IMG/VR virus record: IMGVR_UViG_3300040801_001810
Span: 102,194 to 166,193 of that record
Strand: one strand, 5' to 3'
DNA from: a virus
DNA length: 64,000 nucleotides
A program made the translations under genes and the position numbers. This document shows positions 6,210-28,114 of the stretch, one piece after another (position 1 is the stretch's first letter; each line of letters begins with the position of its first letter). The notes beneath the pieces are model-generated. The model was not told the DNA's origin and ran no database searches. It was given only the letters and a program-made list of their open reading frames with translations.

Positions 6210-7004
6210 TTAACCCACTAAGTCTTTGATTTTACCAAGCTTAGAAACAACGTCTCTAACCTTTTTACCACCCTCGGCTATCTGTACAAATTTTGCCATG
6301 TTTGGTAATTCTGGTATAGCAACTGCTCCAGTTGGAATAGTAGAAGGGATAAATCTTTGTAAGAAGTTATCTGCCATCCACTCTCGTTGGTGTTCTGAGG
6401 ACTCCCATCCAACACTTCCAGCAATATAGACTCCTTCTTCACCAAGAGCTATGGATCCACCAGCTGATTTAATTAAGATAGCCCCATCCGTATTTATAAA
6501 TATACCTACATTTTTATCGCCTAAATCCTCTTGACCTTCAGTAGCAGATTGTTGATTTTTAGCGTTACTACTAGTATAGTCCTTATTAGTAGGCGGGGTA
6601 AGAGCCATGGCTACCTTTTCTAAATCTAACATACTGATCTTACTAATCGAAAATGTTGACCCTCCACTATTAGCGTTAGTACTTGAAGATGACTGATTTA
6701 AAGGCAATACATATACAAACCCTAAAGGAAGATCTGCTAGTGTTCCTTCTTCATCAAGTATGCCTGGAATAAAACTAAGTCGCTCTTCATCTATACCAAA
6801 ATCTGATATAGCTTCATCATGTGTTGCAACAACTGCAACATGTCTTTTAGGGTGCGGAACTTCTGCTCCTCCTAAGTACTTGAAATCAAAGAACTTACCA
6901 TTAAATTCTATTCTAACTATTCTATGAAATTGATTATAGTAATTAGTAGCTGCAATTTTAGCACCAAACTGTTTAAACTGATATCTATTATCAGAATCGT
7001 ACAT
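6210..7004 (-). CDS. Baseplate spike / gpV-gp5-like protein (264 aa)
   Basis: Likely the central puncturing spike or its carrier. An N-terminal beta domain ('FNGKFFDFKYLGGAEVPHPKR') looks like an OB-fold spike base. After a Ser/Asn linker comes a short repetitive beta stretch ('NVGIFINTDGAILIKSAGGS', 'IALGEEGVYIAG'), like the triple-stranded beta-helix of gp5 or phage P2 gpV. The C-terminus is helical and basic. There is no lysozyme or amidase motif. The start overlaps the stop of the giant hub gene in a TAATG junction, and the gp25-like gene begins two bases after its stop. Functional assignment rests on position plus the repeat. Confidence 0.6.
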   Translation of the reverse strand: MYDSDNRYQFKQFGAKIAATNYYNQFHRIVRIEFNGKFFDFKYLGGAEVPHPKRHVAVVATHDEAISDFGIDEERLSFIPGILDEEGTLADLPLGFVYVLPLNQSSSSTNANSGGSTFSISKISMLDLEKVAMALTPPTNKDYTSSNAKNQQSATEGQEDLGDKNVGIFINTDGAILIKSAGGSIALGEEGVYIAGSVGWESSEHQREWMADNFLQRFIPSTIPTGAVAIPELPNMAKFVQIAEGGKKVRDVVSKLGKIKDLVG

Positions 7005-10000
7005 TAGCTTCCTCCTGCGATTGCTTCAGGTATGGATCCAACAATACCTAGTAAGCTAGACTTAAAGTTTTCTGATGGTTCAGGTGTAAAAGGAAGTCCT
7101 GGAATACTCCATAAGATACCTCTGTACTCATCTGGGTTAAAATTAGTTGTTATATTTGCTTTCAATGGATCACTAAATGCAGCAAACCTGGCAATAGGAC
7201 TCTTAACACCTAACACATTATGATTCATCAATGTCTTCAAGTTAGTATAATCTACTCCATTGAATCCTGCAACATAAGGAACTCCATGATACACTAATGC
7301 TGTAAAGTTAATACAGTCTCTTCCAAGAATATTACCCATCATATCATATAGAAACTTATGATTTTTTTTGTATGCATTAACAGTATTATTCCAGAAGATC
7401 GATAAGCCAGTTAAAGCTCCAACTCCCCCACCTATGAAATTACCCCCAGCGGCAGAAATTCCACCAGCTGTAGCAATACCTGCTCCTACTCCAGCAAACA
7501 CTAATTGACTACGTTTCCTCGAGATATAGAAATCATAAATCTGATTGATAATCTGGACGTCCTGTAATTGAATTGGATTCCTATCATAAGTAACTAGGTT
7601 AGGAGTTATGATTGTTCTAAATCCTCGTTCAGGAGTAAACGAATGTATAACTTCTTCTACTTCTACTGTTCCAATCATATCATTTAACCTATCATCGATA
7701 TGAAGTATATCATAAGGCTGGATACTAGTATCACCAATAATTTCAATAGTTCCTTGATACATCTTTTCTACTTCTTGTTGTAGAAGACGCACAGCTACCA
7801 TTACAAATGATGGGAAGTACTGCCAATTAGGAATGTCTTTATTTTTATCAGATGATCCTAAATATTTATTGATCTTTTTAGCAGAGTCTTCTTCATCTCT
7901 AATTCTTCTAAATTCTTTAAAGAACTTATCGTTCTTCTTAGTAATATCAAACCAATTAGCATCTATATTCTTTTGATAACTATTAAGCGGTCTTGTGTGT
8001 TCGTCTCTTAGATCTCCAAATGCCTTAGTCTGCCACAGTTGTAATTTCTTAGATATGAATGCATCACTCATATCACCCAACCTAGCTGAAGTTAATTTAG
8101 GTTCATTAGTATAATATAGATTAACAGCATTAGCAAAATTAGAACTTAATGCGATGTTATTAGATATTAAGTTGGTAACATCCGAAATTAAATGGTGAGA
8201 TTGGATCTTCTTATATTGCGGATCCTTAGCTAGCTGTGGATCGATATTGTCAGTTATACTTTTAACATTATAGAAATCCTCAGCTGATAGAGATGTATTT
8301 ACTTTAGGTCCCCAATTGGCAAACATTAAATCATATAGATTATGCACTGCTAAGCTAAACTTTTTTGCAAGTTCTTTATCAGTTTTAAAATCAAAAGTAT
8401 TTATATCGTCTTCATCTACTGATGAGTATTCGGCAAACTGTAATAATGCTGTTATAGTTTCTCCAAATGCATTTGGAAGAGAAGAGTTATTACCAAGTAA
8501 ATTAGATAATGTTTCCATTAAACTATCATTTGCTCCAGCAAGCTCTGTATTCTTTAATATATGCTGTGATAAAACTAACGCATTTAATCTTTTTTGTAGA
8601 TAAGTATATACAATTTTATATTCAGGTTTAATAATTAGAGGATTAATTAATCCACCAGTAAAGAAACTAGCAATAGATATATTATCAGGCAATGAAATAT
8701 TTTTAATAGTATTTAGAACAGAAGGTAACTGTTCAATACTTTGTTCGATTTGTTTAATGTTTAATGACGATAAAGCAAATGCGTCGGTGTATTTATAATA
8801 TCCAGATTTTTCACCTATAACTAGAGTCTCTCTATATTGTTTCTTTTTAGATATACGGTCATCATTAAATGATCTAACTACAGGAATTGTATCTCTATGA
8901 TATAAACATAGTTCTTTCATTGCTTCCCATACACTCTGATCAAAAATCACCCAATCAAAAGTTGGTTTATGATACTTTGATAGAATATGACTGTAAGGTA
9001 GATATATATTTTCGTCTCTTGGATTATCTTGAGCAAATACATTAGCAGTTGCTCCACCTAAAAGATTACTCATTAAGAACTTATCAGCAAGCTTTCCTCT
9101 GCTATTTTTAATATTTCTTCCAGTGAAATCTCCATGAGTAACAGAACCAAGAGTTGATATCTTTCCTAGATTTTCTAGACCAGGGATCATATCAAGAATA
9201 GATGACGCTACATCTCCGTGATCTTTTGTAGTAGATAAAAGACCAAACTTATGTGCAACAACATGATGATTTAACTGAGCGCCGTAGCTTTGACATACTA
9301 GCTCAACAACTGGACCTGAAGTCATTTCTATTATTCTACCTTGGAAAGCAATATCTAGTAAAGAGTCATGAGGACCATATCCCATTTTAATTAATATAGA
9401 TGTCCCAGGCTTAATATCTAAGGTACCAAAAAATAAGTTATCATCATTACTAGGAGTATTTAGATTGCCAGCAAAATCAGATCTTTCTCTAAATAGACTT
9501 AGTCTATCAGTAAGAGTATTAGTGACGTTACTTAATCTAATGATTGCTGTTTTACCAGCTGAGCTTTTATTAGATACAATTTCAATTGATTGTATTGCGT
9601 CATAGCTGAAGTAGTCGTCTAGATTTTTAGGATAGAATGTTTTATCTTCTTCTATAAAATAGATCTTAAATGCAGGAAACATCTTAATAGTTGTATCTTT
9701 GCGTTTAAGTCTTTGATCCATAAATTGCTTTAACATTTCAGTTTTTCTATCGGCAGCTTCTTTGCTTCTAAAGTTCCAGAACTTTAAAAACTGTAGCTCT
9801 GGTAAGCTGTCAAAGTTTAAGTTAGGTGTAGGATTTAAATTATACTCATGAATAAAAGTATTTAATCTAATATAATATCCTATTTTATTATATAAATAAC
9901 TTTGAATATTCTTAATATCAGGAAGAGATAACCAATTTTCTTCTGTTGATGAGGCTAGTCCTGATCTCATTTTAGAAGCAATTTCTTTTATAATAGTTTT

Positions 10001-13000
10001 CTCTTCTGATGATGCTTGTTCTATTTTAGGATCACTAACAGTAGCGGTAGTTATATTCTCTGCATGTTTAAGTACTGTCATTATGTGAGATCTAAGCTTA
10101 GCTATCTGTGCTGCTTGTGCTCCACTCTTTGAGAGTGTTCTAAAGATCTGATCATTTTTTTCTTCAAACTTACCAAGAATACTATTAGCGGCTACTTGAG
10201 ATACAAGATTATTGTTAACAAGTTTTGATCTATAATATTCGTTTATATGTGTATAAACTTCAAAGATTTCTATAAGCGTTTTAATCCTAGCAGCATTTAT
10301 TAAATTGATCTTAGTTAGGTCTTGATTCTCAAATATAATAGATTTACTAGATCCACTAATTCTAGTTTTAAATGATTCAAACTCATAATCCCATGTAGAT
10401 TTATTAGGGGCCTTTTCTCTAGGATTAGCAGCAATGTAAGCATCAATATATTCATTTATTGTATCATTAGTAAACTTTCCATCATCAAGATTATTAGTAG
10501 CTCTAGATAAAACAACTTGTGTATTTTCAAGCTTCTCAATTAATTCTTTTAATGTACCAGCATTAGAAGAGAAAGACTCTTTTAATAAAACATTCTCAAC
10601 TCCATTTTTAATATCTGGATCAAGTTTTTGTGATGCAGATATTAACTCGTCATACTTCTTAATGGATTCAGTGCTTTCAACAAGACTCATCATTGCATGG
10701 AGTTTACCAATTTTAGCATACTTTCCAACAGCAGAAGTAACATAACTTGCTATATCGTACTTACTATCTATTTGATTATATAAGTAAAAATCTGGTGATA
10801 AAAGAACTTCTCCAAATTGTGCTGGTATATCGAAATCTTTATAGCAGTTGACATGCACTTTAGTTTGATTGCTAGTTATTGTATCAATTTTCTTAGAGCC
10901 AAAGATATCTTCTGTGAATAGTTTATTTCTAATAACAGGATCTCTAACAACATCGTTGGCAAGTATACCAGCAATAGATGAATTAAATGATTCGATCATT
11001 CCAACCATAGATGAACCAGCAGTATTAATAACTGCATTCTTAGCAAATTCCCCAGCAAGGTCAATTCCTATTAGTCCTATTGCTCCAATACCAATTAGAG
11101 AAGCAGCAATTATCGGTAATACAGCCGCTCCTGTAAAGAAAAGACCAACTGCAATTCCAATACCAACAGCAGTTCCTTGAGTTCCGATTGAATCTAAGAT
11201 CTTTGTAAATAAAGATTTATTTGGTTGTATCAGATTAATAATAATATCTGCTTGTTGTTCCATTACAGAGTCAAACTTACTAATAATAAATTTAATAATT
11301 TTATCTACTTCTGGATATTCATTAGCAATTTTATTAAGAGCGTTAGTAGCAGTTGCATTAATATCATTAATCATTATTGAAGAACCAAGAATTTCTTTAC
11401 TTTGCTTATCAATAACATTTGCAGCAGCTGCACCAATTACCTCATTAGAAGTAACCTCAGAATTAATTGGTAATTTATTATTCTTAGATAGGGATCTTTT
11501 ATTCTGTGCTTCGGCTATAACCTGGTTAATATAATTGATAACTCTTTTGCCATGAGAAGACAGGAAGAATCTTGATCTAATTATATCGTCAAGACTTGGT
11601 TCTTCTATCTCATCATTATTCACTATACCAAAAGTTTTAACTACGTATCTATTATTTTCTATTTCAGTAGCAGCCAGAAGCTTAGCAAAACTGGTAATCT
11701 GTATATCATCGGATGACTCTTGATCAATTGAGTGATAGTCTTGTATAGTAAATTTAGCCTGAGTTAAACTTAAGTTAGTAGACCACGAGCCTGGCTGTTC
11801 TTGTATATTGGTTGAGTTAGATGTATCATACACAACTTTATCTACACCAAATACTTTGAATACATGATGGAGAGGAACATCAACAATTATTCTACTATCT
11901 AGATATGTTATTAGTTCAGGAGCAGTATATGTAATAATCTTAACAGTCTCTTGTAATCTTTCCGATAATAGAGATAATTTTGTCTTAAGATCTTCTACTT
12001 CATTTGAATTAACTGAAGTTATATTTAGAGACATATTAATATCATCATGTCCGATATGTTGATAATAAGGATATTTATATGCAGACAAAGTTATTGGTAT
12101 AAACTTATTATTAAAAGTAAGAGACCAACTTATAGTTATATCTTTAGCATTATCTATAATAATAGTATCTTCAGTAATAGGTAATCTAAATGTTTTAAAT
12201 GGAGACTCTGCCCCTGGATCAGCTCTAGCTATTACAATACTATCACTAGAACCTACTCCTAGTTCAGTTAGAATTGTCTGTCTTAGATTAAATAAGAAAG
12301 CAGCAAAACTAGATTTTTTATCTTCAACTTCTGCTTTTGATCCTTTTTCTAACCATGCCCAAATCTTATCAATAGCAGCTTGAGCTGTAGTAACACCAGC
12401 TGCATTTTCAATAGGAGTAACGCCTGTCTCATAATGTAATACTCCTCTTAAAAGTCCAGGAACGTCAACAGTATCTTTCTCAAACTTCCCTTGTACTAAA
12501 TCAGTAACCTGATTAAATAGAACTGTGGATTGTTCGAAACCAACTTTTCGTGATAGCCCTCTCATCAACAATCCAAATGTTGATTGAATTGGTTTAGTAG
12601 TATCATCAGAATCTAGTGTAATACCTTGACTGGCTAAGAGAGTCGGTATTATATTATTAAACTGATTAAATTTAACTGATACTTCATTAAAGAAATCTTG
12701 CTTAGTAAGAAAAGTATTAACTATCTGTCTAACCAGACCAGTCTTATCTTGTATCTGATCAAGAGTACTATTTAATTGTTGTAGTGTATCTACTTGAACA
12801 TCAAATCGTTCATTTGATATCTGAGAAGCTATGTCTCTAAAGGATCCATTAAAGTATCTGTACTTAAATTTAATTGGCTTCTTATTATCTTCTGCTTTAT
12901 AGCTATATAGAAAGTTCTCTCTATTATTTGGTCTTAGTTTTTCAAGAGAATATGCATCTTTAATTATTTCTCCATTAGAGAATACTGGGATGTTATTTCC

Positions 13001-14173
13001 ATTCTCATCCTTAACATAATTTCTATCACCAATAAGACTTTGATAGAATGCTCTAAATGGTAAGCTTTCCTTAAAATTTGGTGATCTATCAATAGTAATA
13101 CCTAATACATCTTCTGCTCTCTCTGGTACTACTGATTCGTCATTAAGCTTAGCTTCAGCCTTAGCAAGTAGATCCTTAAGAAATTGATCTTTATACAGAA
13201 TATCTTGTTGATATTTAACATCTTTAAATGTAGCAAGACCTTCGAATGGGCCATTAATAGCTTTAGGATCAAATGGTAGAAAAGTTACCTGAGCTTGAAG
13301 TGTATTAGGAAATCCTTCAACTGATTGTATATGAATACTTTCTAAAGCAACAGATACCCATTGATTAGGCCACGAAGTACCAGAACAGATTTCTTTAAAG
13401 AACGAGCATATATCTTTATTACGAATATTAACAAAAGGAGTTCTCTTAAACATAGCAAACAGATTTAACAATTGATAGTTAATAGAATCTTCATTAGGAA
13501 ATATTAAAGATATAGAAATATTCTTAACCTGTTGCATTGTTGGTATCTTTGGATTACCAGCTGTACGAACAGTAGGAAAATATTGATAACCATTCTGTGT
13601 ATTAAATGATATCTGAGTAGGATCTACTAAAAATCCTAGATCACCAACTTGGAGATAACCGTCTGTTAGCTTTCCAATCTTATCAGATAAGAATCTAGCC
13701 TCATTCTGTCTATCCTCCGCTGATTTATTCTCAGCGGAATTTTCTTTTAATATAGAATTAAGTTCTTCTAAAGAAGTATTATTAATTGAGCTAAGATTTG
13801 GTCTGATAACTCTAAATATTCTAGTTGGATTAGATAATTGTGCTTGATCTTGGGGAGGTAATTCTGGCCACGCATTAAATGTATTATCAGGGAATGTAAT
13901 AGTAACAACATACACTCTATTAGAATGCATGATTATATCGCCAGATCGTAAGTTTCTGACATTAATAGGTTTATCGCCATCAAGATCAACTTTTACTTTA
14001 AGATACTTAGAGTAAGCGATTGGAATTAATGATCTTATAGTCTTAATTTTATTCTGGTTATTTATTTGATTAGCACTAGACTCCGTATTAAACGGATCTT
14101 TTTTAGTTAAAATTAAGTGAAGGGTTGCGCCTAGGTTTTCAGGATTAACAGGCTTTACAACAGCATTATTCAT
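7004..14173 (-). CDS. Giant baseplate hub protein with membrane segments (2389 aa)
   Basis: Appears to be the tail hub (gp27/gpD-like) expanded several-fold. The N-terminal ~350 residues contain 'GDLGFLVDPTQISFNTQNGY' and 'VKNISISLIFPNED', typical of tail-tip proteins that join tube to hub. At about residues 1500-1680, 'LDIKPGTSILIKMGYGPHDS' and 'FQGRIIEMTSGPVVELVCQS' match the hub beta-barrel layout. A second hub-like part, 'GTIEIIGDTSIQPYDILHI' then 'GTVEVEEVIHSFTPERGFRT', lies near residues 2150-2230. Hydrophobic glycine-rich stretches near residues 995-1055 and 2265-2310 are candidate membrane spans. A usual hub is 350-500 residues, so the extra ~1900 may include ejected or tape-measure-like parts. 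No catalytic motif was found. Confidence 0.75.
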   Translation of the reverse strand: MNNAVVKPVNPENLGATLHLILTKKDPFNTESSANQINNQNKIKTIRSLIPIAYSKYLKVKVDLDGDKPINVRNLRSGDIIMHSNRVYVVTITFPDNTFNAWPELPPQDQAQLSNPTRIFRVIRPNLSSINNTSLEELNSILKENSAENKSAEDRQNEARFLSDKIGKLTDGYLQVGDLGFLVDPTQISFNTQNGYQYFPTVRTAGNPKIPTMQQVKNISISLIFPNEDSINYQLLNLFAMFKRTPFVNIRNKDICSFFKEICSGTSWPNQWVSVALESIHIQSVEGFPNTLQAQVTFLPFDPKAINGPFEGLATFKDVKYQQDILYKDQFLKDLLAKAEAKLNDESVVPERAEDVLGITIDRSPNFKESLPFRAFYQSLIGDRNYVKDENGNNIPVFSNGEIIKDAYSLEKLRPNNRENFLYSYKAEDNKKPIKFKYRYFNGSFRDIASQISNERFDVQVDTLQQLNSTLDQIQDKTGLVRQIVNTFLTKQDFFNEVSVKFNQFNNIIPTLLASQGITLDSDDTTKPIQSTFGLLMRGLSRKVGFEQSTVLFNQVTDLVQGKFEKDTVDVPGLLRGVLHYETGVTPIENAAGVTTAQAAIDKIWAWLEKGSKAEVEDKKSSFAAFLFNLRQTILTELGVGSSDSIVIARADPGAESPFKTFRLPITEDTIIIDNAKDITISWSLTFNNKFIPITLSAYKYPYYQHIGHDDINMSLNITSVNSNEVEDLKTKLSLLSERLQETVKIITYTAPELITYLDSRIIVDVPLHHVFKVFGVDKVVYDTSNSTNIQEQPGSWSTNLSLTQAKFTIQDYHSIDQESSDDIQITSFAKLLAATEIENNRYVVKTFGIVNNDEIEEPSLDDIIRSRFFLSSHGKRVINYINQVIAEAQNKRSLSKNNKLPINSEVTSNEVIGAAAANVIDKQSKEILGSSIMINDINATATNALNKIANEYPEVDKIIKFIISKFDSVMEQQADIIINLIQPNKSLFTKILDSIGTQGTAVGIGIAVGLFFTGAAVLPIIAASLIGIGAIGLIGIDLAGEFAKNAVINTAGSSMVGMIESFNSSIAGILANDVVRDPVIRNKLFTEDIFGSKKIDTITSNQTKVHVNCYKDFDIPAQFGEVLLSPDFYLYNQIDSKYDIASYVTSAVGKYAKIGKLHAMMSLVESTESIKKYDELISASQKLDPDIKNGVENVLLKESFSSNAGTLKELIEKLENTQVVLSRATNNLDDGKFTNDTINEYIDAYIAANPREKAPNKSTWDYEFESFKTRISGSSKSIIFENQDLTKINLINAARIKTLIEIFEVYTHINEYYRSKLVNNNLVSQVAANSILGKFEEKNDQIFRTLSKSGAQAAQIAKLRSHIMTVLKHAENITTATVSDPKIEQASSEEKTIIKEIASKMRSGLASSTEENWLSLPDIKNIQSYLYNKIGYYIRLNTFIHEYNLNPTPNLNFDSLPELQFLKFWNFRSKEAADRKTEMLKQFMDQRLKRKDTTIKMFPAFKIYFIEEDKTFYPKNLDDYFSYDAIQSIEIVSNKSSAGKTAIIRLSNVTNTLTDRLSLFRERSDFAGNLNTPSNDDNLFFGTLDIKPGTSILIKMGYGPHDSLLDIAFQGRIIEMTSGPVVELVCQSYGAQLNHHVVAHKFGLLSTTKDHGDVASSILDMIPGLENLGKISTLGSVTHGDFTGRNIKNSRGKLADKFLMSNLLGGATANVFAQDNPRDENIYLPYSHILSKYHKPTFDWVIFDQSVWEAMKELCLYHRDTIPVVRSFNDDRISKKKQYRETLVIGEKSGYYKYTDAFALSSLNIKQIEQSIEQLPSVLNTIKNISLPDNISIASFFTGGLINPLIIKPEYKIVYTYLQKRLNALVLSQHILKNTELAGANDSLMETLSNLLGNNSSLPNAFGETITALLQFAEYSSVDEDDINTFDFKTDKELAKKFSLAVHNLYDLMFANWGPKVNTSLSAEDFYNVKSITDNIDPQLAKDPQYKKIQSHHLISDVTNLISNNIALSSNFANAVNLYYTNEPKLTSARLGDMSDAFISKKLQLWQTKAFGDLRDEHTRPLNSYQKNIDANWFDITKKNDKFFKEFRRIRDEEDSAKKINKYLGSSDKNKDIPNWQYFPSFVMVAVRLLQQEVEKMYQGTIEIIGDTSIQPYDILHIDDRLNDMIGTVEVEEVIHSFTPERGFRTIITPNLVTYDRNPIQLQDVQIINQIYDFYISRKRSQLVFAGVGAGIATAGGISAAGGNFIGGGVGALTGLSIFWNNTVNAYKKNHKFLYDMMGNILGRDCINFTALVYHGVPYVAGFNGVDYTNLKTLMNHNVLGVKSPIARFAAFSDPLKANITTNFNPDEYRGILWSIPGLPFTPEPSENFKSSLLGIVGSIPEAIAGGS

Positions 14174-14176
14174 TTA

Positions 14177-14359
14177 CTATTCCTTTAAGTTTCTTAAAGC
14201 AATTGGGCTTAGTGATAGAGGATCATCTACCTCAATGACATTAATCTTAGTTGGTTTTCCGTTTAACTTTGAGATTTCTCGTTCTAATAAACGTAAATAT
14301 TCTGAATAATCTTGGCCGTCATCGACATTGATTGATATATTTGCTTCAACTACACTCAC
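14177..14359 (-). CDS. Small unknown protein between two giant genes (60 aa)
   Basis: Starts with GTG, which overlaps the TGA of the 2350-residue gene (GTGA). AGGAGAG lies about eight bases upstream, so the start is well supported. The product is acidic and mostly helical, with 'YLRLLEREISKLNGKPTKI' predicted as one amphipathic helix, and has no cysteine or membrane segment. I do not recognise it. Its place between the polymerase-like protein and the hub suggests an adaptor or chaperone for the giant proteins; that is inference. Confidence 0.6.
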   Translation of the reverse strand: MSVVEANISINVDDGQDYSEYLRLLEREISKLNGKPTKINVIEVDDPLSLSPIALRNLKE

Positions 14360-17300
14360 AGATCTGCTCTCCTATCTAATTGGGATGAACCAAATTGTGG
14401 TATGTAACTAGTATAGTTCGAATAGTTATTATTTGGAGGACCGAAGAACGCTTGTCTGTTTTGATTTACAGTACCTACTGTATTATCAATCATCCTAGAT
14501 ATAACACTAGATCTCTGTCTCTTATTGTTTCTATTGCTATTTAATCTAATAAATGCCTGTTTAGAGAATGAAGCATCAACCATATCAAGAGGAATATTTC
14601 TATTTAATTCTACTGAGGAGCTAATAGCATTATGCGAACCATCAATATCAACACCAAGATCAGTAAATGCATCTAATGGATTAGCTGAATTAGATAACTG
14701 ATTAGGTTTAAAGAAAGTGGCAGCCATATATATACCAGCAGCAATAGCCCCAACTTTCCCTCCCTTTTTAAAGAAGGATCTAGCATTAGGTGTATCCAGT
14801 TTAAATTTTTTAGATAACTGATCTCCTAACTCTGATACTGCTGATCTAGTAGGTGCTGGTACAGAGAATTTATTCTCTAACATGAAATCCTTCTCAGCAG
14901 CAGATATTATTATATCAGCTATATTTGCATTATCTCTAACTAGATCAATATTATCAAATGATCTTTTCATATCAAATAACTGAGATCCTCTTGGAGCGAT
15001 TTCTTCCATTTCTCTCATTATACCAATAGATTTTTTATAGTAAGATTGTCCTTCATCTGCTCCATACATATCAGTAAATAGATTTTTAAGCGAATTCTTA
15101 TCTTCTCTAGTAGAATTTTTTGGATCTAAGAAGACCTTAGCAGCAGAAGCAAGTCTTCCAAAATCAGCATTAGGATGCTTTGCCAAACTAATAAACGTCT
15201 GGGCAATACCAGCATAACCATGATTTAAGTTGCCCATTAGCGCTTTAGCAGCTACACTATCTTTTCCAATAAGTCCTGCTTGTAATAATTGTCTTGATCT
15301 AGTGTAAGCAACATTTGTCATTAGTCCTATTACATTCTTTGATACCGCAGTATGAGCAACTCTATCCATTTGATTACCAATATACTTTGCAGTAATAACA
15401 TTAGGATTGTGCAGCTGAATAGTCTTAATGTTTTCAGCAAATGATTGAAAGTCATTAGCAAACATTGTCATAGTTTTTTGGGAATTAATATCCATACTCT
15501 TAGTAATAAAATTACCTTGATCATCAAAGCCTCCCATTAAGACTCCATCTTTAGTTCCAGGAGTAATATCCATTAAGAACATCTTCTCTTTTAAACTATC
15601 TCTTAATGATTTAACTACGCCTTGTTTAGCAGAAACTACAGAGTCTAAAGCTTTTCCTAGTGATGCAGAATGTTCTGCACCATAACCCATTAGAGATTCA
15701 GCTGTCTTGAGACCTTTCATTACAAAATACGCAACATCACCATCAAAGTCAGCTCCAAACAACTTAGTATATTGAGCATGTACTTGAGCTTCATTAGCAT
15801 TCATTCCAAGGAACTCACCGACTTCTTGTGGAATTATATTTAACCGCATATCTAGTACAGCATCAGTTGCAGATTGTACGTTAGGATGACGAGTCATATA
15901 TCCATATAGATATTCTTCTCCTCTCATTATACTAGATATTTTACCAGCATTATCTGGTCCAAATACTCGAGCAAGATGTTCAGTAGCTTTAACTACATTA
16001 TTAGCTTTATTAATTTGCATTGGAAGCTCAAAATTTTTAAAGAACGCATCTGTTACATATACATCAGAAAGATTAGATTTAGATGTTAGTCTTTTAATTA
16101 ATTGATTTGCTTGTGTAACGCTTCCTTTAAACTGATCTCCAAAAGTAGCAAATCCTCCACGTCTTTGAATATCTAAAGCCTTTTCAATTATATCTGCCGC
16201 TCCTCTAATAGGTGCTTGAACTCCACGAGGAGCAAGCTCATTAGCTCTAGCATATACAGAAGAAGAATCCATTAAGAATCCTTGATTCATATAGTTTAGA
16301 TATTGTCTCTTTAGAAAACTCTCTGCTGTTCTTACATCAGTTTGTCCTTTACTACCAGATCTCATTTCAGATAGTACAGATTCATAATGTTTAGCTGCTT
16401 CAATAACTTTATACTGTTGTTTATTTCCTTGGCTTAAATATCCAATAGAAAGATCTTTACCATAAGGATTAAGTACATTGTATATATTTTGAGGAGACGT
16501 GTCAGCGTGCATTACTAGTTTACGTAATCTAACAACTTTATTAGTTTCATCTATGCTTTCAACTATTCCTTTACTTGGATCCTTAGCTGAATCATACATA
16601 GTCTTAAACATAGACATCATTTTATTCTCTTGCTGAATCGCCATCTGTGGATCAAGCTCTGAGTTCTTAAGCATGTCAGCTATATGAAATTCAAATGCTC
16701 CTCCAAGTTCTTTCTTAGCAGAATAAGCAAAGACGCCTTTATCCTTAGCCATTGCAGCCCATGACTGTACAGCAGACATTGAAACAAAGTTTTTATTATT
16801 TTCAAATGATTCGGCAAGTTTTGATGTTTGTAATTCATGAATGATTGACTTAACAGCTTTCTCTAAGTCTTCCCCACTTCGACCTTCTTCTGCAAGCATG
16901 GCAGAAACGTGCTGTATCATTTCAGCTTCAGCAGTATCACTATTAATAATTCGTCCAAGCTTATTAAGATCAAGTCTATTAACTCTATCTAATAGTTTAT
17001 TAATATCTTTTATATTAAGTTCCATATTAGAAGTAGAGACTGCTCTAGATAGCAACACATCTTTAAATCTATCCATGGTTCTTCTAGCAGATGCAAATCT
17101 TTTGTCTTTAAGGAATCGTCTACTTGTTTTTAAATCATCAATAGTAGAGCGAGATACATGACCAAAAGGAGTATCTATTAATGAAAGTAAACCCCCACGT
17201 AATTTTAAATCAGTTGGTTTAGGTTGTCTTCCCTTCATTATATTATAAATTGCTCCACGTTGTCTATGTCTGAACCCAGGAATAAAAGGAGAGTCGTCTC

Positions 17301-20300
17301 TATCCGTCCATTTCTGAATTGGTTCTAAGAACATAGGAATCTTAGCTCCTTCATCTATTCTTTTAATATCTGGAAGGAAGTATGTCTTAAGTGTTGGGGT
17401 CATACTTTCTTTTATATTAACTAAGTCGTCTCTATGAAAACTAGATAAGGCTCCTTTTGAATTGCTAAGTGTTGCATCTATATCTTTAGTTGAGTTCCTA
17501 ACTGTTTGATTAATCCAATCTTCAATATTCTTTCTACCAGATTTCATTACATTATCAGAACCAACTGCATCTGAGTCAGCCCACATTCCATACCAGTTCT
17601 GTGCTTTTTGTTTATCCCAAATTATTCCAGCATCAACCATATAACCATTAAGTTTCTCTATAGAAAGATCAATATTACCAATAAATTTCTTAGCAACAGC
17701 AAGTTCTTTTGGATCAGTTATATTCTTAAATTTAATATTAGTCTCTGGATTATGAATAATAACACCACGCTTCTTATCAAAGCTTGAATTAATTTCAGTA
17801 GATATCTTTTTGATTACCTTCTCAGCTCTAGTTTTCTCTGCTTGAGTGCCAGTCTCTGTTTGATCCAAAAGCTTGTCAAATACCTTTTCTATTAAGGCGT
17901 TCTTTTGTGCACCTACATATCCTTTTTCTATAAAGTCTGCTGTAGAAACATGCTCAGCACCACCCATAGCAATTCCAAGAGATAACCATTTATCTACTAC
18001 TCCAGTGCTCTTAGTAAGCAATGATCTATAGTTAAAAGTAACATGATTAAAATCTGAACCAGCTGCTGTAAATAATAGGTTGCCGTGAACTTTAATCTTA
18101 CCAGCTGTATCTCTATCTATCATGACGTTTCTTAATACACCATCTAGTTCAGCTTTAGTAGTAACAAAGCTTTTATCTCCTTGAGCCATAGTTAAACTTG
18201 TGCCTCTAGGAATATCAATAGTTAATCCTTTAGAATCCATATCTGCTTGAACGTCTTTTAGCGCAATATCCCAATGTGATTTTTTAACTGAACCGCCGTC
18301 CAGATCAGCTAGTTCCTTAACTCTTTTTCTAACTCTTCCCTCAAGATCTAGTACTCTTTTACTAAGATGAGGATCCGCAGATGTCCATTGAGCAGAAGTT
18401 AAATCAACATTTTTTTCGATATGAAATTGATGTCTATCAAATACTTTTTGAGAGAAGGCATTATATCCTTCTTGTCCTCTCCAAGAATTAAATACTGATA
18501 CGCTATCTGTCATGATATGATGAGAGAACTCATTCGTCATTGCGTCAGATTTAAGTTTCCATCCAGCGGCATCTATTTCGCCTTGAGAAATAAATGATGG
18601 TCTAAAATACTTTCTATGCATTGCTCTTTTTTCAAGGTCAGTTCTTCCTTTCATAGATTTCATGAATTGGCTGCTTACTCTATTCTTAATACCCATATAA
18701 AACTGATCCCATTGTTTAGTCATTGGGTTATCAGAGTTTGGGATCAAGTGGTTAGGAGAGAACATAGACATAGTTTGTTTAGCTATCTGTCCTTGACCTA
18801 GTAATGATGCAGATGCGAATTCTCCATGAATGGTATATCCTCGTTCTAGATACTTAGCCTCTTCAAAGCTTTCATCAAGACCCATTATTCGTTTACCATC
18901 TAAAAGGAACTTTTGTAGTTCACTAAGATTCTTATATGATTTTTCACCAGATTGAAACTTGTTAATTTCATCGATTAACATCACATTAGTAAATAAACTA
19001 TCAACAACAGGAGAAGCATGTGCTTGAGATAAGAATCCCTTTTGTGCCCAATCAGTAAGCATCTCGTCACCAATTATAATATTACCCTTACGTCTAAAAT
19101 GATCAATAGCTTTTCTTATCTGACCAGGTTTATCAATATTAATTGGATCGGTGCCTTGTCTACCCATCATTCTCATAATAACTTTATTAAGAGCAAGAGA
19201 TCCTTCTCCACCAAATCCTAACTTCTGATAGTATGCTATACTATGAACGTCTATAAATTTTAAATACTTTTGTAATTTAGCCCATGCCTTTGGTGCTTTA
19301 TTCTTTAGCATATGTAGATCAAATTGAGAACCATTCTTAGTAGTAAAGAATACTTTCTTATTGGCAGCTACTGCGGCTTCAACTTGTCTTAGAATAGATT
19401 CACCAATATGTTCAGCAAAATCCATATTATCTTTAAATTTAGGTGCTCCTCTAGATGTTCTAAAGTTCTCAGCTTGTCTTCTAATTTGTTGTCCCCAGGC
19501 TTCTCCTACTTCATCAGGAGTAGTAAGATGAGCAGATTTATCACCAAGTTCACGTCTTAGCCATGAAGCAGTATCTTCTGTCCATCCATACTTTTTCATT
19601 TGATAGTATCCATGATCAGATACAAATTCATCAGCTCCAGTATGAACTAATTTACCATTCTTAAATTCAGACGACACAACTCCTGCTTTAGTTAACTGAG
19701 TATATTCGTCTCGAGCCATCCACTCTGGACCAGGAAGATCTCTAGAGATACTTTCAAAGTCAAACGTAATATTAACTACGTCTTCTCTATTCTTAATAGC
19801 TGTAGCTAGTGTTCCAAGATTTTGCATTGACTCATGAGCATTACCTAATCTAAGTAACTGATTCTTAGTAAATTTACTTTCTGTAACAAGTCTACCTGCT
19901 TTGAACGAGTCTCTAATAGTGCCCTCAGCTAATGGGGAATCTTCTAGAAGATTATTCATTGAAAAATGTATTCTTCTAATAGCTTTATCAGGATTAATAG
20001 AAAATTCGTTTTCCATCATATTACTATCAAGAATATCATTTAGTGCTCTAATCATCTGTTGTGATTTATTTTCGATATCCTCATTTATTCTAAGATCTTT
20101 ACCAAGAGAATGTTTTTTGTTAAGACGTCTAATGGCGTCTCCTTCTGTCTTTAGATAGAAACCATCTAACATCTCTGTTACGCTTGGAGTTGATCCTGGA
20201 ATTCTACCATGTTGAGCAAGAGGAATCTCAGTTGAGAACCGCCCCTTCGTATTATGTTCAAATGAAACTTTAGCATAATACTTAGGATCAGTGGCGCTAC

Positions 20301-21408
20301 CTTTAGTTATAATTTCAAATCCAACATCTTTAATTTGAGTATCAGCCGCTCTTGTAGTCTTTAAATCATTTAGCTTATCGCTTAACTTCTTTAATCCAGC
20401 AGTATAATCAAATTGACTTAATAATCTAAATCTTTTATTATCAGGAACAAAAGCCACTCTATTTAATGAGCCTGATGTAATTTTATTATTATCTTGTGCT
20501 AGAAGATCAAACGCATTAACTCCTTTAACAGAATGTTTATTATAACCTTGACCAATTCTCTGTGAATATACCTTTTGCCTAGCAACTGAAAGATGTGTTG
20601 AATCAAACTCTTCGCCACCATATAAGAAGCTTCTTACATTTGTTTCCGTAAAAGTTTGAGTAGTAGGATTAGCATCATAAGCATTCTTAGCCATAGAATA
20701 AGAGGATTTCATTCTATTTAGTCTTCTTTGATAAAGATTAGCATAGGAAGAATCATATTCTAAATAATATTCATGTAAAGCTTTTAATCGAGTCTTATCA
20801 GAAGCAGGAGATTTAATAGAATGTAAAGTAGCTACGTCTTCTTCTCTAGCAGCAGACTCTCTCGCAAAGTGCTCGTATAATGTGCTTTCTCTGAGGGTAA
20901 ATAGAATGTCATCTCTATCAACAGTTACATCAACAGCTGGCTTAAGTGGATATCTGGATCCTTTAGGAGTTCTAACAGCTCCACGAGCAAATCCAAGATC
21001 CTCTTCTGTTCTAGATATAATTGAGTCTTCTGCTCTCTTAACATAATTAATATATGATACGTCTTTCATTTCAGCCATATCAAATTTAGTAGCAGTGTCC
21101 ATATCCAAAACATCATCCAAAGATCGTTGAGTTTCTTCATCAATATCAATACCAAAATAAGGTTGCTTAAGGGAAGCAGATTCGCTGATGATTCTTTCTC
21201 TTGAATCAAATTGTTTCATTGCTTCTCTAGAAACTATCTTATTTTTATATTGATCTAGGTACTTTAATGCCAATCTTCCAGTTGGGCCTTTAATCTTATA
21301 TGCACCAAAAGCCATACCAGTTAAGGCTCCAAGTTTCATAAAGGTATTAAATGTCCAGTGACCTTTATCAACATCTTCTTTTTTAAATGGATTATAAATA
21401 TCAGCCAT
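14356..21408 (-). CDS. Giant virion protein with RNA-polymerase-like DFDGD motif and DEDD exonuclease-like domain (2350 aa)
   Basis: Candidate virion RNA polymerase of the double-psi beta-barrel type. Directly visible: 'LFGADFDGDVAYFVMKG' with D1887, D1889 and D1891, equivalent to the NADFDGD metal-binding loop of RNAP beta-prime; R1840-H-P1842, 47 residues upstream, comparable to the R-x-P of the same barrel; and 'NVIGLMTNVAY' (G2028), comparable to the 'GVIANAH' element after the DxDGD of RNAi-type polymerases. A second module at ~548-805 has DnaQ-like motifs: D550-F-E552, 'KNGSQFDLHML' (D697), and H797-x5-D803. Near the C-terminus (~2230) is one hydrophobic segment. The gene sits in the tape-measure region between two other giants and overlaps both neighbours (TAATG upstream, GTGA downstream). 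Known analogues are crAss-like phage virion RNAPs and YonO. Polymerase activity is inferred. The second barrel was not located by eye. Confidence 0.7.
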   Translation of the reverse strand: MADIYNPFKKEDVDKGHWTFNTFMKLGALTGMAFGAYKIKGPTGRLALKYLDQYKNKIVSREAMKQFDSRERIISESASLKQPYFGIDIDEETQRSLDDVLDMDTATKFDMAEMKDVSYINYVKRAEDSIISRTEEDLGFARGAVRTPKGSRYPLKPAVDVTVDRDDILFTLRESTLYEHFARESAAREEDVATLHSIKSPASDKTRLKALHEYYLEYDSSYANLYQRRLNRMKSSYSMAKNAYDANPTTQTFTETNVRSFLYGGEEFDSTHLSVARQKVYSQRIGQGYNKHSVKGVNAFDLLAQDNNKITSGSLNRVAFVPDNKRFRLLSQFDYTAGLKKLSDKLNDLKTTRAADTQIKDVGFEIITKGSATDPKYYAKVSFEHNTKGRFSTEIPLAQHGRIPGSTPSVTEMLDGFYLKTEGDAIRRLNKKHSLGKDLRINEDIENKSQQMIRALNDILDSNMMENEFSINPDKAIRRIHFSMNNLLEDSPLAEGTIRDSFKAGRLVTESKFTKNQLLRLGNAHESMQNLGTLATAIKNREDVVNITFDFESISRDLPGPEWMARDEYTQLTKAGVVSSEFKNGKLVHTGADEFVSDHGYYQMKKYGWTEDTASWLRRELGDKSAHLTTPDEVGEAWGQQIRRQAENFRTSRGAPKFKDNMDFAEHIGESILRQVEAAVAANKKVFFTTKNGSQFDLHMLKNKAPKAWAKLQKYLKFIDVHSIAYYQKLGFGGEGSLALNKVIMRMMGRQGTDPINIDKPGQIRKAIDHFRRKGNIIIGDEMLTDWAQKGFLSQAHASPVVDSLFTNVMLIDEINKFQSGEKSYKNLSELQKFLLDGKRIMGLDESFEEAKYLERGYTIHGEFASASLLGQGQIAKQTMSMFSPNHLIPNSDNPMTKQWDQFYMGIKNRVSSQFMKSMKGRTDLEKRAMHRKYFRPSFISQGEIDAAGWKLKSDAMTNEFSHHIMTDSVSVFNSWRGQEGYNAFSQKVFDRHQFHIEKNVDLTSAQWTSADPHLSKRVLDLEGRVRKRVKELADLDGGSVKKSHWDIALKDVQADMDSKGLTIDIPRGTSLTMAQGDKSFVTTKAELDGVLRNVMIDRDTAGKIKVHGNLLFTAAGSDFNHVTFNYRSLLTKSTGVVDKWLSLGIAMGGAEHVSTADFIEKGYVGAQKNALIEKVFDKLLDQTETGTQAEKTRAEKVIKKISTEINSSFDKKRGVIIHNPETNIKFKNITDPKELAVAKKFIGNIDLSIEKLNGYMVDAGIIWDKQKAQNWYGMWADSDAVGSDNVMKSGRKNIEDWINQTVRNSTKDIDATLSNSKGALSSFHRDDLVNIKESMTPTLKTYFLPDIKRIDEGAKIPMFLEPIQKWTDRDDSPFIPGFRHRQRGAIYNIMKGRQPKPTDLKLRGGLLSLIDTPFGHVSRSTIDDLKTSRRFLKDKRFASARRTMDRFKDVLLSRAVSTSNMELNIKDINKLLDRVNRLDLNKLGRIINSDTAEAEMIQHVSAMLAEEGRSGEDLEKAVKSIIHELQTSKLAESFENNKNFVSMSAVQSWAAMAKDKGVFAYSAKKELGGAFEFHIADMLKNSELDPQMAIQQENKMMSMFKTMYDSAKDPSKGIVESIDETNKVVRLRKLVMHADTSPQNIYNVLNPYGKDLSIGYLSQGNKQQYKVIEAAKHYESVLSEMRSGSKGQTDVRTAESFLKRQYLNYMNQGFLMDSSSVYARANELAPRGVQAPIRGAADIIEKALDIQRRGGFATFGDQFKGSVTQANQLIKRLTSKSNLSDVYVTDAFFKNFELPMQINKANNVVKATEHLARVFGPDNAGKISSIMRGEEYLYGYMTRHPNVQSATDAVLDMRLNIIPQEVGEFLGMNANEAQVHAQYTKLFGADFDGDVAYFVMKGLKTAESLMGYGAEHSASLGKALDSVVSAKQGVVKSLRDSLKEKMFLMDITPGTKDGVLMGGFDDQGNFITKSMDINSQKTMTMFANDFQSFAENIKTIQLHNPNVITAKYIGNQMDRVAHTAVSKNVIGLMTNVAYTRSRQLLQAGLIGKDSVAAKALMGNLNHGYAGIAQTFISLAKHPNADFGRLASAAKVFLDPKNSTREDKNSLKNLFTDMYGADEGQSYYKKSIGIMREMEEIAPRGSQLFDMKRSFDNIDLVRDNANIADIIISAAEKDFMLENKFSVPAPTRSAVSELGDQLSKKFKLDTPNARSFFKKGGKVGAIAAGIYMAATFFKPNQLSNSANPLDAFTDLGVDIDGSHNAISSSVELNRNIPLDMVDASFSKQAFIRLNSNRNNKRQRSSVISRMIDNTVGTVNQNRQAFFGPPNNNYSNYTSYIPQFGSSQLDRRADL

Positions 21409-24400
21409 TATAAATTAAACTTCTTTCTTACATCAAAGGCTCTAGATATAGTAAGAGATCTATCTCTTCTAATTGTTACATTAATAACATTTGCATCACT
21501 AGCTCCATTATTAATATAGACCATAGCGTTAGATTTAATGCCATTCTGTCTAAATAGATTATTTATTATCCCTCTAACGTGACCAGAACTTAAGTTCGGA
21601 GTTTCCATAGGAACTTCATTCATATCAGCTGCTTGTATCTCTCGATCAAATCCTTGCATTCTAAGCATTTGTTCATTCCAACCAAGCCCAAATTCATGTG
21701 CATCAAAACCTTGTTCCTGTATAGTTTTTAATTCGATATCTTCTAACTGGACGCCTGGGTCAAGAACGCTTCTATTAAATACATGTCTTCTATCAACCGA
21801 TATTCCTTTACTTGTATTCTCTACAAAAGCACCAGTTGCTTCTTTTTGATCACTAGCATTCCATTGTTTCTTAAGAGCGGCCCCTAAGTCAGAAGGAAGT
21901 ACACTAAGAATTTCTTTTCGTTCTCTTGGATTTCTAGTATTTAAGAATGATTCTATATATGGTTTCTCAGTAAAAGGAGTTGCTCTAAATAGATCAGCTA
22001 CATTTCCTTCGCCTTGATTAATAGAAGTTAGGGTTGATCTTCTTGCATCCATAAACTTCTTCTGAGTTAATCCCGATGATAATTGTGTCAACATATCAGC
22101 TTTAGCATATTTAGCTGCGTCAAAGTATGAAACTATATCACGCTTTTCTTGAATACTATTTGGAATATATTTTGAACCAGTCGCAAATCTATAAAGTCCA
22201 TGAACTGTTCCATATGCAGTACCTAACCCAGCACCTATAACTGTACCTAATGGTCCACCTAATACAAAACCTCCTGTACCATAAGAAATGCTTCCTGCTA
22301 GGGGGTCAGTCTTTGAAGCGAGTCCTCTTGAGTATGGTTCTACAAATGAGCTAATTGGTTCATCCCATGGCTTGTATTCTTTACCATATAATCTAGTCAT
22401 CTTATAATGTTCTATTGGATCTTTCATTCCAAATAGTTTATTAGTAAGCAAGAAATTAGTATTAGTAAAATTCTCCCAAGCCCAACCAATTGCTCTTTCC
22501 TTTAAACTATAATCCGCTCCAGCTTTAATATCTTCATTAATAGATTGTATATTCTTTTGAGTATCAGGAGTTAATAGTTTCCCTTTGAATCTATTTGGAT
22601 ATAATTCGTATTTACGTAATCTAGCCTGTCTTTTCTTAAGGGCGAATTTATATCTATTTACTTCTTTTTCAGTAAGGACACCAAATTTGATTTGCTTCTC
22701 TACAAGAGTTTTAACTTCTTTATACTCTTTAGAAGTAGGAGCAACGTCAGCTAGAATATCAAGTCTGTCTATCCAGGAATAACTATATCCATAATTATCT
22801 TCGACGCCCTCATCTAGCATTGATTGAGCTGTTTGTCTCGCTTTTTGTAGCTTTGCTAAATCTTTTTCCCATCTATTCCTACTATAATTGACTTCAAATA
22901 ATTTAGTCATCGTAGGATTATCTCTATTTATATATAAGATATTACCCTTATTAAGTCCAAGTTCTTTCAGATAAAAGTTAATCTGGCCAACGTGCTGATA
23001 CTTAGGTCCTTCAGCTAGTTTCTGAAATCCTGCATCATTGATAGATTTAATTTCTAGTGCTCTACGACCTTTACCTCCTTTACCATCTCTAATAACAGCA
23101 TCTACGTGACCAGTAATGTCGTTCTTAATATCAAATACTAGAGCTTCTGCCTGAATTAATAATCCTTCAGCTGCTAGTGAGTCTTGAATAGCAGCGTGCA
23201 TTTCAGTTCCTTCTTCCATTATATCAAACGATTCTTTTAATGTAGGAGTTATCATACCTGTAAAGTACTCTAGTATCTGTGGTTCATTAGCTCCCAACAT
23301 AGATGCTCTAGCAGGCATTGTTCTTCTTAAAGTTGTATGTGTCTTAGAGTAAGCTTCTCCAGGTAATCTAAGTTCTCCTCTTAGAATCTTTTCATAAGGA
23401 TCACCAGAAAGGAATTGAGCTGGTAACCAGTTAGGCATTAAGTTAGGAATAGGATTAATTCCGTATTGCTTATACTCAGGTTTGTCTATTAATCTTCTGA
23501 TAGGCTCAGTTAAGAATCCCATACCACCAAGATTCTTATCATAAAAACTTCTACTCATAGAAGCAATTCTACCAGCTGTCTGTAAAGTAGGCATTACAGC
23601 AGGTTCACCAAATACTCTTTCAGTAATACTTCTACCTAGGAATCCTTTTAGTCCAGCAAATTGCGAAACGTCATATAAGAAATCTTCTGCTGCTGTCTCA
23701 GACCAATTCTTATTTGGCATTATATTTACAGTCCCACCAGCCGTAGCTATTCCTGTTGTGCTTCTAATCTGAGACTGATTCCTCATTAAACCAAGACCTT
23801 CCCCTAAAGTAGGAGGTCTTATTGCGAATGGATATGGATCACCTGCTCCACCAGCTTTAATTGCATCTGAAGTTAAGAACTCTTGATGCATAGTCTTCTG
23901 AGGTTTAATTATTCTACCAATAGTTGCTGATAAAGGTTTACCAATGATTGGCATCTCATCGAATATGCCGCCAGTTACTGGATATGGTCTGCTAAAGAAG
24001 TGCTTACGCTCCATATAATAAGGGTCAACTAAGTCGCCTACATTAAATCCTATAAATGGCAAAGGCTCATGTATTAATTTTCGAAAAGCGGATCCATATT
24101 TTGTATCAGTCTCTTGCCATCTTGACTTAGCTCTTACATACCAGTTTGGAGACCAACCTATAACTTTAGATCCTTCCCACGGAGTTCCACCAAGTAACCA
24201 TGTTGGTGATTTCATCATTGGGACTTCTGCTCTACCAGCATAAATTTCTGTAAGTTCCTGATGACTCTTAGTCATATCTGGAATATAAGGAGAGGCCAGT
24301 CTATTAACTATAGCTCCAGTTAATACTCCCTTAGCTACTCCAAGTGCTCCTCTACCAGTAATCATACTAGAAAGGCCACCAACTATCATACCAGGAAGAG

Positions 24401-27400
24401 TGCTTTCAGAACCAGGAGCGAGACCATGCATATATTTCATCATGCCTGTAACACCTGTCACATCTGAAGCTCTTGCTAATCCTAGTCTACCTTTAGCAAC
24501 GACATCAGCACCAAAACCAGTTAAACCTTCATCAAAAGAAGTATCATCAAATAGAGGATTAGTTGCAATTAAAGTGTCAGCTACTTTGTATGAACCAAAT
24601 GCTAAAGCTGTGGTAGACATTATACCACCAATAAATTTAGCGCCTCCCATTAATCCGTGATGTGAAATATATCTTTTCTTAAATGGCAACCACTCTGATA
24701 TCATATCAGTAGTTGAAGTCATTGTCTTTCCAAGAACATCACTCATTGCTCTTAAGCCAGTAGGAGCAGAGAAGTAAGGAGATGTACCACCAGATAAATC
24801 AGATGGATCGAATTCTGCATCTTTAAGAATTCCCCCCATAATTCTATTCTGTTCAAAGTCAATCTTTGGATTTTTAATTCTATTATTAGAAACAAAATCT
24901 ATTATCTCATTTCCAACATCCCACTGTTCTTCTTTGGCTCTATGTCTAACCTTTTTTAATACGCTAGAAAAAGTGTCAGACGACTTAGCTATGTTTCTAA
25001 CAAGACCGTCATCTCTAAACACAGATAGCTTAGCGTGTAACTTAAGAGCTTTAGCTTCTTTATTGGTAATAATTCCTTGTTCTAATAATCCTGGGACCGC
25101 TGCTATTAATGGGTGTGCTTCTCCTGGTCTAGGATTAGTCAAATAAGATTTATTAAATATATCATCTATATAATTAGTTCTAGCTACATCCATGGATGTC
25201 ATAGATGAAAGTGGACCTAGTCTTTTAACAACTTCGTGTGTCTGCGATTCTTTTGGAAATGCTTTGACTTCTTCTACTGCTCTTTTAAAACCAGTTCTTT
25301 TAATCCAGTCACCAGCTCTCCAATCAAGACTATCTAATTTATCTACTAGCGCACGATCATCAAAAGCTACGTTTAAAATATCATCTGCTAGTGTTTTATC
25401 GTGGACAAAATGAGCTATCTGTTGAAGCGCATTCTTATTTTGTAGAACTCTAGATTGTACTTGAGATGTATGAGTTAATAGATTATCTAATAATGGTAAA
25501 TGTTTTTCTCCATCTAAAATATTACCATTGCCAAATATATCAGCGGATAGTTGTTGGTAATGTTTATTTCCACTTAATCTAGCATCAATATTTCCAAGCA
25601 TTTCATTTAGCTTGGAAGGTAGTCCAATATTTCTTCTATCTAGAAAGTGTAAGAATGTATTTTTAGGACTATCATAATAGTCAACTTGTTCTCTGATCTT
25701 ATTAAAGTCAGATCCAGCGTCCATTGCTGCATCACGTAATCTATTAATTGCTAAGCTTTTAAGTTCATAGCTCTTATCTCTTGAAGCTCGAGGAGCACGA
25801 TATAGTTTTCTTTTAGAATCAACTTCTCTAATACCTTCACCATCAAAAATAGCCCACTTACCATTAGCATACATGAAAGAAGCGTCTTTACCACGAGCCA
25901 ATTCTCCAATAGATCCATTACCAAATTGAAATTCAGGCTTTCTATCAAAGAACTCAAATGAAGGAGCTTCAGATAAATACTTGCCAGCTCCTGTTAGTTC
26001 AGATAAAGTAAAATTCATAGATGATAGTGGAATATGGAATCTCTTATTAGCTATCCATGAGGCCCCTCTTCTCATAACATGAATAGGATCAAATGCTCCA
26101 AGATCTACACCAGCACCCTTAGCTTTACCACCACGCCAATCTCTATAGATATTATTTCCAACACGCATGTTAAGAACATTACCCATTAGAGTTTCTGCGG
26201 TTTTATTACCATATCTTTCAGATAGTGTTCCTTGTGTTCTTCTTATCCAGTCTTCATTAATAACATCTTTATTACGTAATGGTTCTAAGAAACCAAATAC
26301 TTTATTAATAAATGATTTTTGATTAGCTTGTCTCTTAAGCTCAGGAATAAAATGATCTGATAATCCATTAGAAGCTAGTGATGCTTGGCTTCCTACATTT
26401 GACATAGAAGCTACTTTATCAAGTGCTTCTATAGCTCTAAGACCAGAGTATTTAATAGTAGAAGATGGAGTAACTCTATCTTTAGCACCCATCTCTTTAA
26501 CATTTTTAAGAGCAGCATTAATAGTACTAAATGCTTTTTTAGTACGTTGGCCAAAGGACCCCTTAGATCTCCATGCTTCTTTTGCAGCGTCAGGTAATGT
26601 ATATAACGCAGATTGTACACTTCTGTACTTATCTCTAATACTTTTTCCTGCTTCTAAGAAGGATAATCCCTTCTTAACCATATCAGAAGCAACCTTAGTT
26701 TCCTGCTTACTTCTTAGTTCTCCAACGACATCTTGTTTAAGGTATTTCTCATATCTAGCTCCTCTAGGTATACCAGGGGAGTTAGGAGCCATCCTAGCTG
26801 CCAGAGACCTTCCCATAGCTCCACCAAAGGCTTTGGATGCACTACGCATACCAATACTGCCTATAGCTCCAAGTCCTCTCTGTGCGCCCCCAAAGGCCAA
26901 TCCAGCAATAGAGTCATTAACCATCCATCTACCAAAGTTAGATATCTGACCAGGAACGTCGTACCATGATTTTTTCTCGAGACCCATATCTTTAGAGATA
27001 CCAAGCATTGAGTCTACTGCGTAAGCTACTCCCATACCAGATAATACGTTTTGTTTCCAAACGCTACCAACTGAGGCTATAAATGTCTTTGGGTTTTTGA
27101 ATGCTGAAGTAAATCTAGCAGCGCCATAACCAGGCTTACCTTTCATACCAGCAAGAGACTGCATTCTAGTGGTATGTGCTTGCCCAATAGATGTTTTACT
27201 AATGGCCCTCTTAATATCAGACTTAGCTTGATTTACTGTACTAGTTACACTATACGCCCTCTGGGCAATTTGTTTTCTAATACCAGATGGGCGGTTCATC
27301 CATTTCTTAACTATTCCCCCACCAGATTTAGAAAGTCTATGGGTAATAGCTCCACCAATTAAGTTTAATCCACCAATAAGTGCTATAGACTTAATAGCCT

Positions 27401-28042: not shown

Positions 28043-28055
28043 GATCACTCCAAAT

Positions 28056-28086: not shown

Positions 28087-28114
28087 CCTTAAACTAACCA
28101 CTCGTGGATTGTGA

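Follow-up and report, generated by a model that had tools for sequence, protein, structure and literature searches.

The window analysed here, a 64,000-nucleotide stretch of a viral genome, contains a giant tail-region gene whose product carries a DFDGD sequence. The question raised by this locus is whether that sequence marks an RNA polymerase (RNAP) and, if so, what such an enzyme would do when encoded where a contractile-tailed phage has its tape measure gene. The ORF opens with ATG, has no internal stops and encodes 2350 amino acids. Its elements are as follows:

14356-21408 (-): giant protein of 2350 aa with RNAP-like and exonuclease-like domains; homologues of 2250-2506 aa
15736-15750 (-): DFDGD, D1887/D1889/D1891, putative catalytic Mg-binding triad of the first barrel (DPBB-A), from conservation in homologues
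15883-15891 (-): R1840-H-P1842, the RxP motif, 47 residues ahead of the triad; aligns with RAP of E. coli beta'
15313-15330 (-): IGLMTN, aa 2027-2032, candidate bridge-helix element; G2028 invariant in 17 sequences
15178-15201 (-): Q2070-x2-I2073-x3-K2077, candidate trigger-loop-like element; invariant in 7 sequences and mostly kept in 19
15016-16821 (-): aa 1530-2131, modelled from an alignment of 17 sequences (AlphaFold2, Foldseek)
15718-16221 (-): predicted barrel (DPBB-A), aa 1730-1897; block pLDDT mostly 75-89, Foldseek matches to RNAP
17794-18171 (-): aa 1080-1205, a candidate and unproven location for DPBB-B, the second barrel, from invariant columns (K1133, K1162, K1200, EKGYVG)
18979-19791 (-): DEDDh exonuclease-like domain, D550-x-E552, D697 and H797-x5-D803; invariant in 7 sequences

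The three elements on which the first-pass annotation had based its proposal of an RNAP-like signature, namely ADFDGD, an R-x-P 47 residues before it and IGLMTN, were all recovered at the residues given for them. Taken alone, D.DGD is a weak signal: 0.40 occurrences are expected in shuffled window proteins, and a second copy, DLDGD, is found at aa 63 of the 2389-aa hub protein, without RxP. It is therefore not rare enough to mean anything. The combination of RxP with DxDGD 30-50 residues further on occurs once in the window and is expected in 1.55% of shuffles. The hub copy is what might be seen if DFDGD were a convergent or chance DxDGD (an EF-hand-like loop or another that binds metal) in a coiled tail protein with no relation to RNAP, but the profile, profile-profile, Pfam and fold evidence given below, with controls in which DxDGD was kept, contradicts this explanation, which we consider extremely improbable. 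The DFDGD motif is real, and more than a chance DxDGD.

We investigated the conservation of the motif in related IMG/VR records, which were reached via a terminase query and in which the giant protein was then located. Six homologues (2258-2506 aa, counted stop to stop) were fetched by a scan with the C-terminal segment, without the motif as a criterion, and these form, with the window protein, a set of seven unselected sequences. Despite a full-length identity to the window protein of only about 16-31%, RxP and all three aspartates of the triad were kept in all seven, and the glycine in six. The triads of the six homologues read DVDGD, DNDGD, DSDGD, DTDGD (two) and DNDVD, each preceded by RxP at a distance of about 47 residues. 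The residues of the RNAP region invariant in the seven sequences are K1133, K1162, Y1164, G1166, K1200, R1840, P1842, E1862, G1868, D1887, D1889, D1891, G2028, N2032, Q2070, I2073 and K2077. We regard this conservation as decisive for the reality of the motif.

The aspartates and RxP were present in 19 of 19 aligned proteins, comprising the seven unselected sequences and 12 less closely related proteins encoded at that gene position, ten of the distant members having been chosen by RxP...DxDxD and thus providing no independent evidence of conservation. A chance origin of the motif in those ten nevertheless appears unlikely, because they share the position and the IGxxxN and QxxIxxxK elements, candidates for a bridge helix and a trigger-loop-like element, respectively. 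A pattern in the adjacent upstream gene identified 37 loci, and in ten of these, outside the six homologues, a giant downstream ORF contained RYP...DxDxD at a similar place. Two isolates, Acinetobacter phage ME3 and Bacillus phage KLEB27-3, share the terminase lineage of the window phage, and their same-position genes encode a diverged REP...DHDQD and an RYP...DYDGD, respectively. Among the loci found with the upstream-gene pattern, RxP...DxDxD was absent from the same gene in 0305phi8-36 (locus L148, 218,948 bp, which is very probably this phage) and several relatives, indicating that tails of this type can do without the RNAP domain.

The shorter, motif-free same-position proteins of several lineage members, together with the altered glycine position of some triads (DNDVD, DTDDD, DIDAD and DHDQD), would be consistent with a domesticated or dead RNAP relic, now structural in the tail. 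Such a relic seems highly unlikely: retention of the three aspartates and RxP throughout the alignment at low identity is expected of a working metal site, and the crAss-like virion RNAPs likewise have no glycine there (DFDID/DFDVD).

When the window protein was searched directly against Pfam, PHROGs and PDB sequences, nothing matched in the RNAP region; tblastn found no phage or plasmid relative, and a host search of GTDB genomes found no relatives. Long profiles (507 positions from five homologues; 496 positions from seven, including two named phages) retrieved no RNAP from PDB; only a 75-position segment did so. This profile, built from the RxP-DxDGD segment of the 19 proteins and run against all PDB sequences, matched 117 distinct sequences at E≤10, and the best 60 rows listed were all RNAP largest subunits. 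The top match was a subunit of the phiKZ multisubunit RNAP (E = 4e-4), and the others included the P23-45 tape measure RNAP (8h2n; E = 6.6e-4), RPB1 of a large eukaryotic DNA virus and bacterial beta'. With the seven unselected homologues alone, 10 of 12 PDB matches were beta' chains, mostly in register, at E values of only 1.3-1.5.

Profile-profile comparison with hhalign was controlled with 100 column shuffles in which DxDGD was kept. The 19-sequence profile aligned with a single E. coli beta' sequence (score 41.2, E = 1.1e-4; best shuffle 24.2) over residues 421-472, which run from RAP to DFDGD, with RxP and DxDGD of the window protein in register. High scores were also obtained with the crAss RNAPs (42.2, E = 7.9e-5, RxP and triad in register; best shuffle 21.9) and with Thermus RNAP (36.9; best shuffle 28.5). 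The seven-sequence profile scored 32.2 against crAss, and the crAss-Thermus pair, the relationship of which is structurally established, itself scored 29.7. The Pfam family RNA_pol_Rpb1_2 (PF00623) matched five of the 19 members singly (best E = 7e-4), and whole-genome scans with it picked out the giant tail ORFs of KLEB27-3 and of four other genomes (G042, G043, G015 and G048).

YonO and the crAss virion RNAP had both been proposed as relatives in the first-pass annotation. YonO was rejected as the closest relative, its score of 24.9 falling within the range of the shuffled controls (best 26.3); PF05183, the YonO/RdRP-type family, had no match in the genome of the window phage. Better matches to the window segment than YonO came from the cellular beta' and from the phiKZ, crAss and P23-45 enzymes. 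The profile search, the controlled profile-profile comparisons, the Pfam matches and the predicted fold support the view that the DFDGD region is homologous to the largest subunits of RNAPs.

The AlphaFold2 model of aa 1530-2131 was of moderate confidence (pLDDT 63.8, pTM 0.44), with most blocks of the RxP-DxDGD barrel at 75-89. Foldseek against PDB returned 263 matches at E≤1e-3; RNAP largest subunits accounted for all of the best 50, with low global TM-scores (about 0.17); given these scores and the confidence of the model, only the local barrel is supported, not the whole enzyme. Among viral models, the named matches were mostly RNAP subunits. An earlier model of aa 1015-2200, based on seven sequences, was poor (pLDDT 49.6), and the Foldseek matches listed for it were mostly RNAP largest subunits, none of them significant. 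The barrel in the model lies at aa 1730-1897. The profile, profile-profile and AlphaFold2/Foldseek results show that the window protein contains the first barrel, DPBB-A, with its triad and RxP.

The second barrel, expected somewhere in the chain on the earlier proposal, was not recognised when profiles were compared with rpoB, the crAss and Thermus enzymes and YonO. Single-chain phage RNAPs conserve DPBB-B much less than DPBB-A (PMC10770324), which makes this failure expected, and the roughly 700 uncharacterised residues between 1015 and 1730 provide room for a second barrel, which we infer to lie within the same chain. Alternatively, the protein might contain the DPBB-A-type catalytic half only, with the second barrel supplied by another virion or early protein, as in a split, phiKZ-like phage RNAP. 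The single recognisable barrel, the phiKZ subunit at the top of the PDB matches and the constant presence of the adjacent upstream protein are consistent with such a split, as is a weak hhalign match of aa 1060-1400 of that upstream protein to rpoB 1052-1119, the lysine-bearing part of DPBB-B. At E = 0.32, this match is within noise, and the upstream protein was rejected as the carrier of the second barrel; as non-detection is expected and space is available in the chain, a split enzyme is unlikely.

The gene neighbourhood was compared with those of 0305phi8-36, ME3 and KLEB27-3. The relevant features of the window are:

21408-27491 (-): adjacent upstream protein of 2027 aa, co-conserved and used to find the lineage; Cas4-like nuclease at aa 1423-1556
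22824-23225 (-): Cas4-like nuclease domain of the upstream protein (phrog_1706, E = 1.2e-15; phrog_1990, E = 4.7e-9)
7004-14173 (-): downstream baseplate hub/endolysin-type protein of 2389 aa (phrog_20474, E = 2.7e-42; synteny)
33138-35900 (-): tail sheath of a contractile tail (phrog_16991, E = 1.5e-41)
27491-28414 (-): two small ORFs at the tail-assembly-chaperone position, inferred from position only

Sheath, baseplate wedge, portal, capsid and TerL were identified in the window phage, and the hub assignment rests on synteny with ME3_37 and 0305phi8-36. The RNAP-protein gene lies between the Cas4-bearing protein and the hub, with the small chaperone-like ORFs on one side and the giant hub on the other, as for orf146, the tape measure protein of 0305phi8-36. 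Synteny with 0305phi8-36, ME3 and KLEB27-3 identifies this as the tape-measure gene position, and its assignment to a contractile-tailed phage, already made in the first-pass annotation, was borne out. The Cas4-like domain is absent from the aligned upstream-protein counterparts in KLEB27-3, ME3 and MTATph1. Intein-like insertions ending in V/AHNS are apparent at two different sites in the upstream tail proteins of two relatives (L118, at 3-3677, and L121/L137).

We therefore consider that the C-terminal third of the protein is, with a probability of about 0.8, a highly diverged beta'/RPB1-type two-barrel RNAP, fused at the tape-measure position in a jumbo phage that has a contractile tail and belongs to the 0305phi8-36 lineage.

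The same chain contains the DEDDh 3'-5' exonuclease pattern (DxE, D, H-x(4-5)-D), invariant in all seven unselected sequences, the window protein included; the first-pass annotation mentioned neither this motif nor the P23-45 gp96 enzyme discussed below. Pfam RNase_T is matched above its cut-off by the proteins encoded at this gene position in L161 and Moorella phage MTATph1, and a weak alignment links KLEB27-3 gp034 to the MTATph1 protein across the exonuclease region. A profile of the exonuclease motif (A9) had no match among PDB sequences.

Elsewhere in the window, a 300-aa ORF (62887-63789, -) resembles only the C-terminal part of the ribonucleotide reductase large subunit, and this gene may be split or interrupted. 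An ORF with a GHSLGG lipase-like motif (61557-62300, -) adjoins a dUTPase-like gene (62300-62875). Outside the window, the genome of the phage (G000) carries about 27 tRNA genes (G000:C1 1-15000, around 176000 and 210000-230000; L013, L019, L021 and L022), which between them serve most amino acids, as well as a tmRNA gene whose tag is GEETTEEFYPLAKAA.

Virion packaging, injection and early-gene transcription can be proposed for the window protein by comparison with Thermus phage P23-45 gp96, a tape-measure-fused virion RNAP described in 2024, which transcribes the pre-early genes from the virion, a second enzyme being made later (PMC10770324). The RNAP-bearing protein would be packaged in the tail, or together with the DNA that is ejected, and would enter the cell at infection. 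The D1887/D1889/D1891 triad would bind Mg2+ and transcribe the phage genes that arrive first, before the host RNAP is redirected, which by analogy with gp96 is the most likely role of the enzyme. The DEDDh exonuclease (residues ~550-803) would be carried along in this chain and may trim nucleic acid during entry. A DxDGD scan, PF05183 and PF00623 revealed no second RNAP in the genome, and later transcription would therefore presumably depend on the host RNAP. A search for a virion-RNAP promoter motif in the intergenic regions of this genome recovered only pieces of tRNA genes.

The enzyme could instead be a non-virion RNAP made after infection and merely encoded in the tail cluster, as the only recognised RNAP of 0305phi8-36 (orf99, RdRP-type) sits outside that cluster. 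Three observations make this decidedly unlikely. KLEB27-3 gp034 carries the annotation of a structural protein, and in the late operon the RNAP-protein gene directly adjoins or overlaps the genes beside it. Two genomes, G019 (L149) and G048 (L154), carry, besides the tail-cluster RNAP, a separate RdRP-type RNAP (FRSPL...DxDGD) above the family cut-off, and G050 (L157) has a tail-cluster RNAP and a sub-threshold RdRP-type candidate, a situation comparable to the virion/non-virion pair of P23-45. As a side observation, in G044 (L146/L178) and G052 (L159) the tape gene lacks the RNAP motif and a separate 508-571-aa ORF matches RNA_pol_Rpb1_2, weakly in G052, which suggests that these phages use a separate, perhaps multisubunit, enzyme instead.

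Like the window protein, P23-45 gp96 is a giant protein at the tape-measure position with an RxP...DFDGD RNAP core. However, gp96 has 5002 aa, an N-terminal RNAP (residues 327-1124) and a non-contractile tail, whereas the window protein has its core at aa ~1530-2131 of 2350, in the C-terminal third, an added exonuclease motif and a contractile tail. The crAss-like virion RNAP (Cellulophaga phi14:2 gp66, PDB 6VR4) is likewise a single-chain core in a giant virion protein, but these phages have short non-contractile tails, a non-glycine triad and no full-length similarity to the window protein. Cellular beta'/RPB1 and phiKZ-type beta' share the RxP...DxDGD catalytic segment and the predicted fold, but belong to multisubunit enzymes, whereas the window protein is a single giant fusion for which no partner subunit was recognised. 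The tape measure protein orf146 of 0305phi8-36 (PMC2147016) shares gene position and lineage, but lacks RxP...DxDxD, the RNAP of that phage being encoded by the separate RdRP/YonO-type orf99. SPbeta YonO belongs to the same superfamily of two-barrel single-chain RNAPs, with DNDGD, but was indistinguishable from shuffled controls. Our literature search found no description of contractile-tailed phages with an RNAP in their tape-measure gene, and the P23-45 report, its supplementary survey aside, mentions RNAPs fused to other large proteins in crAss-like and N4-related phages only (PMC10770324). New here, relative to gp96, are the contractile-tailed jumbo lineage, the C-terminal RNAP and the exonuclease fusion.

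A bolder reading, which we consider doubtful, is that a broad contractile-tailed jumbo lineage delivers a multi-enzyme tail polypeptide, DEDDh exonuclease plus RNAP, in which the second barrel is highly derived or displaced to another injected protein, such as the Cas4-bearing neighbour. If true, this would be a new RNAP architecture, which would have to pass the tail tube and refold in the cell.

On the preferred reading of a fused two-barrel RNAP, virion RNAPs joined to tail proteins are extended from P23-45, with its long non-contractile tail, and the short-tailed crAss-like phages to contractile-tailed jumbo phages. The lineage includes isolates, KLEB27-3 and ME3, that are open to virion proteomics and in vitro transcription, and the apparent dual RNAPs of G019 and G048 constitute a natural comparison of the division of labour between virion and non-virion enzymes. 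These findings suggest that the lineage may inject its own transcription enzyme along with its DNA, and bear on the host-independent start of phage transcription and on the question of whether polymerases are able to traverse a contractile tail.
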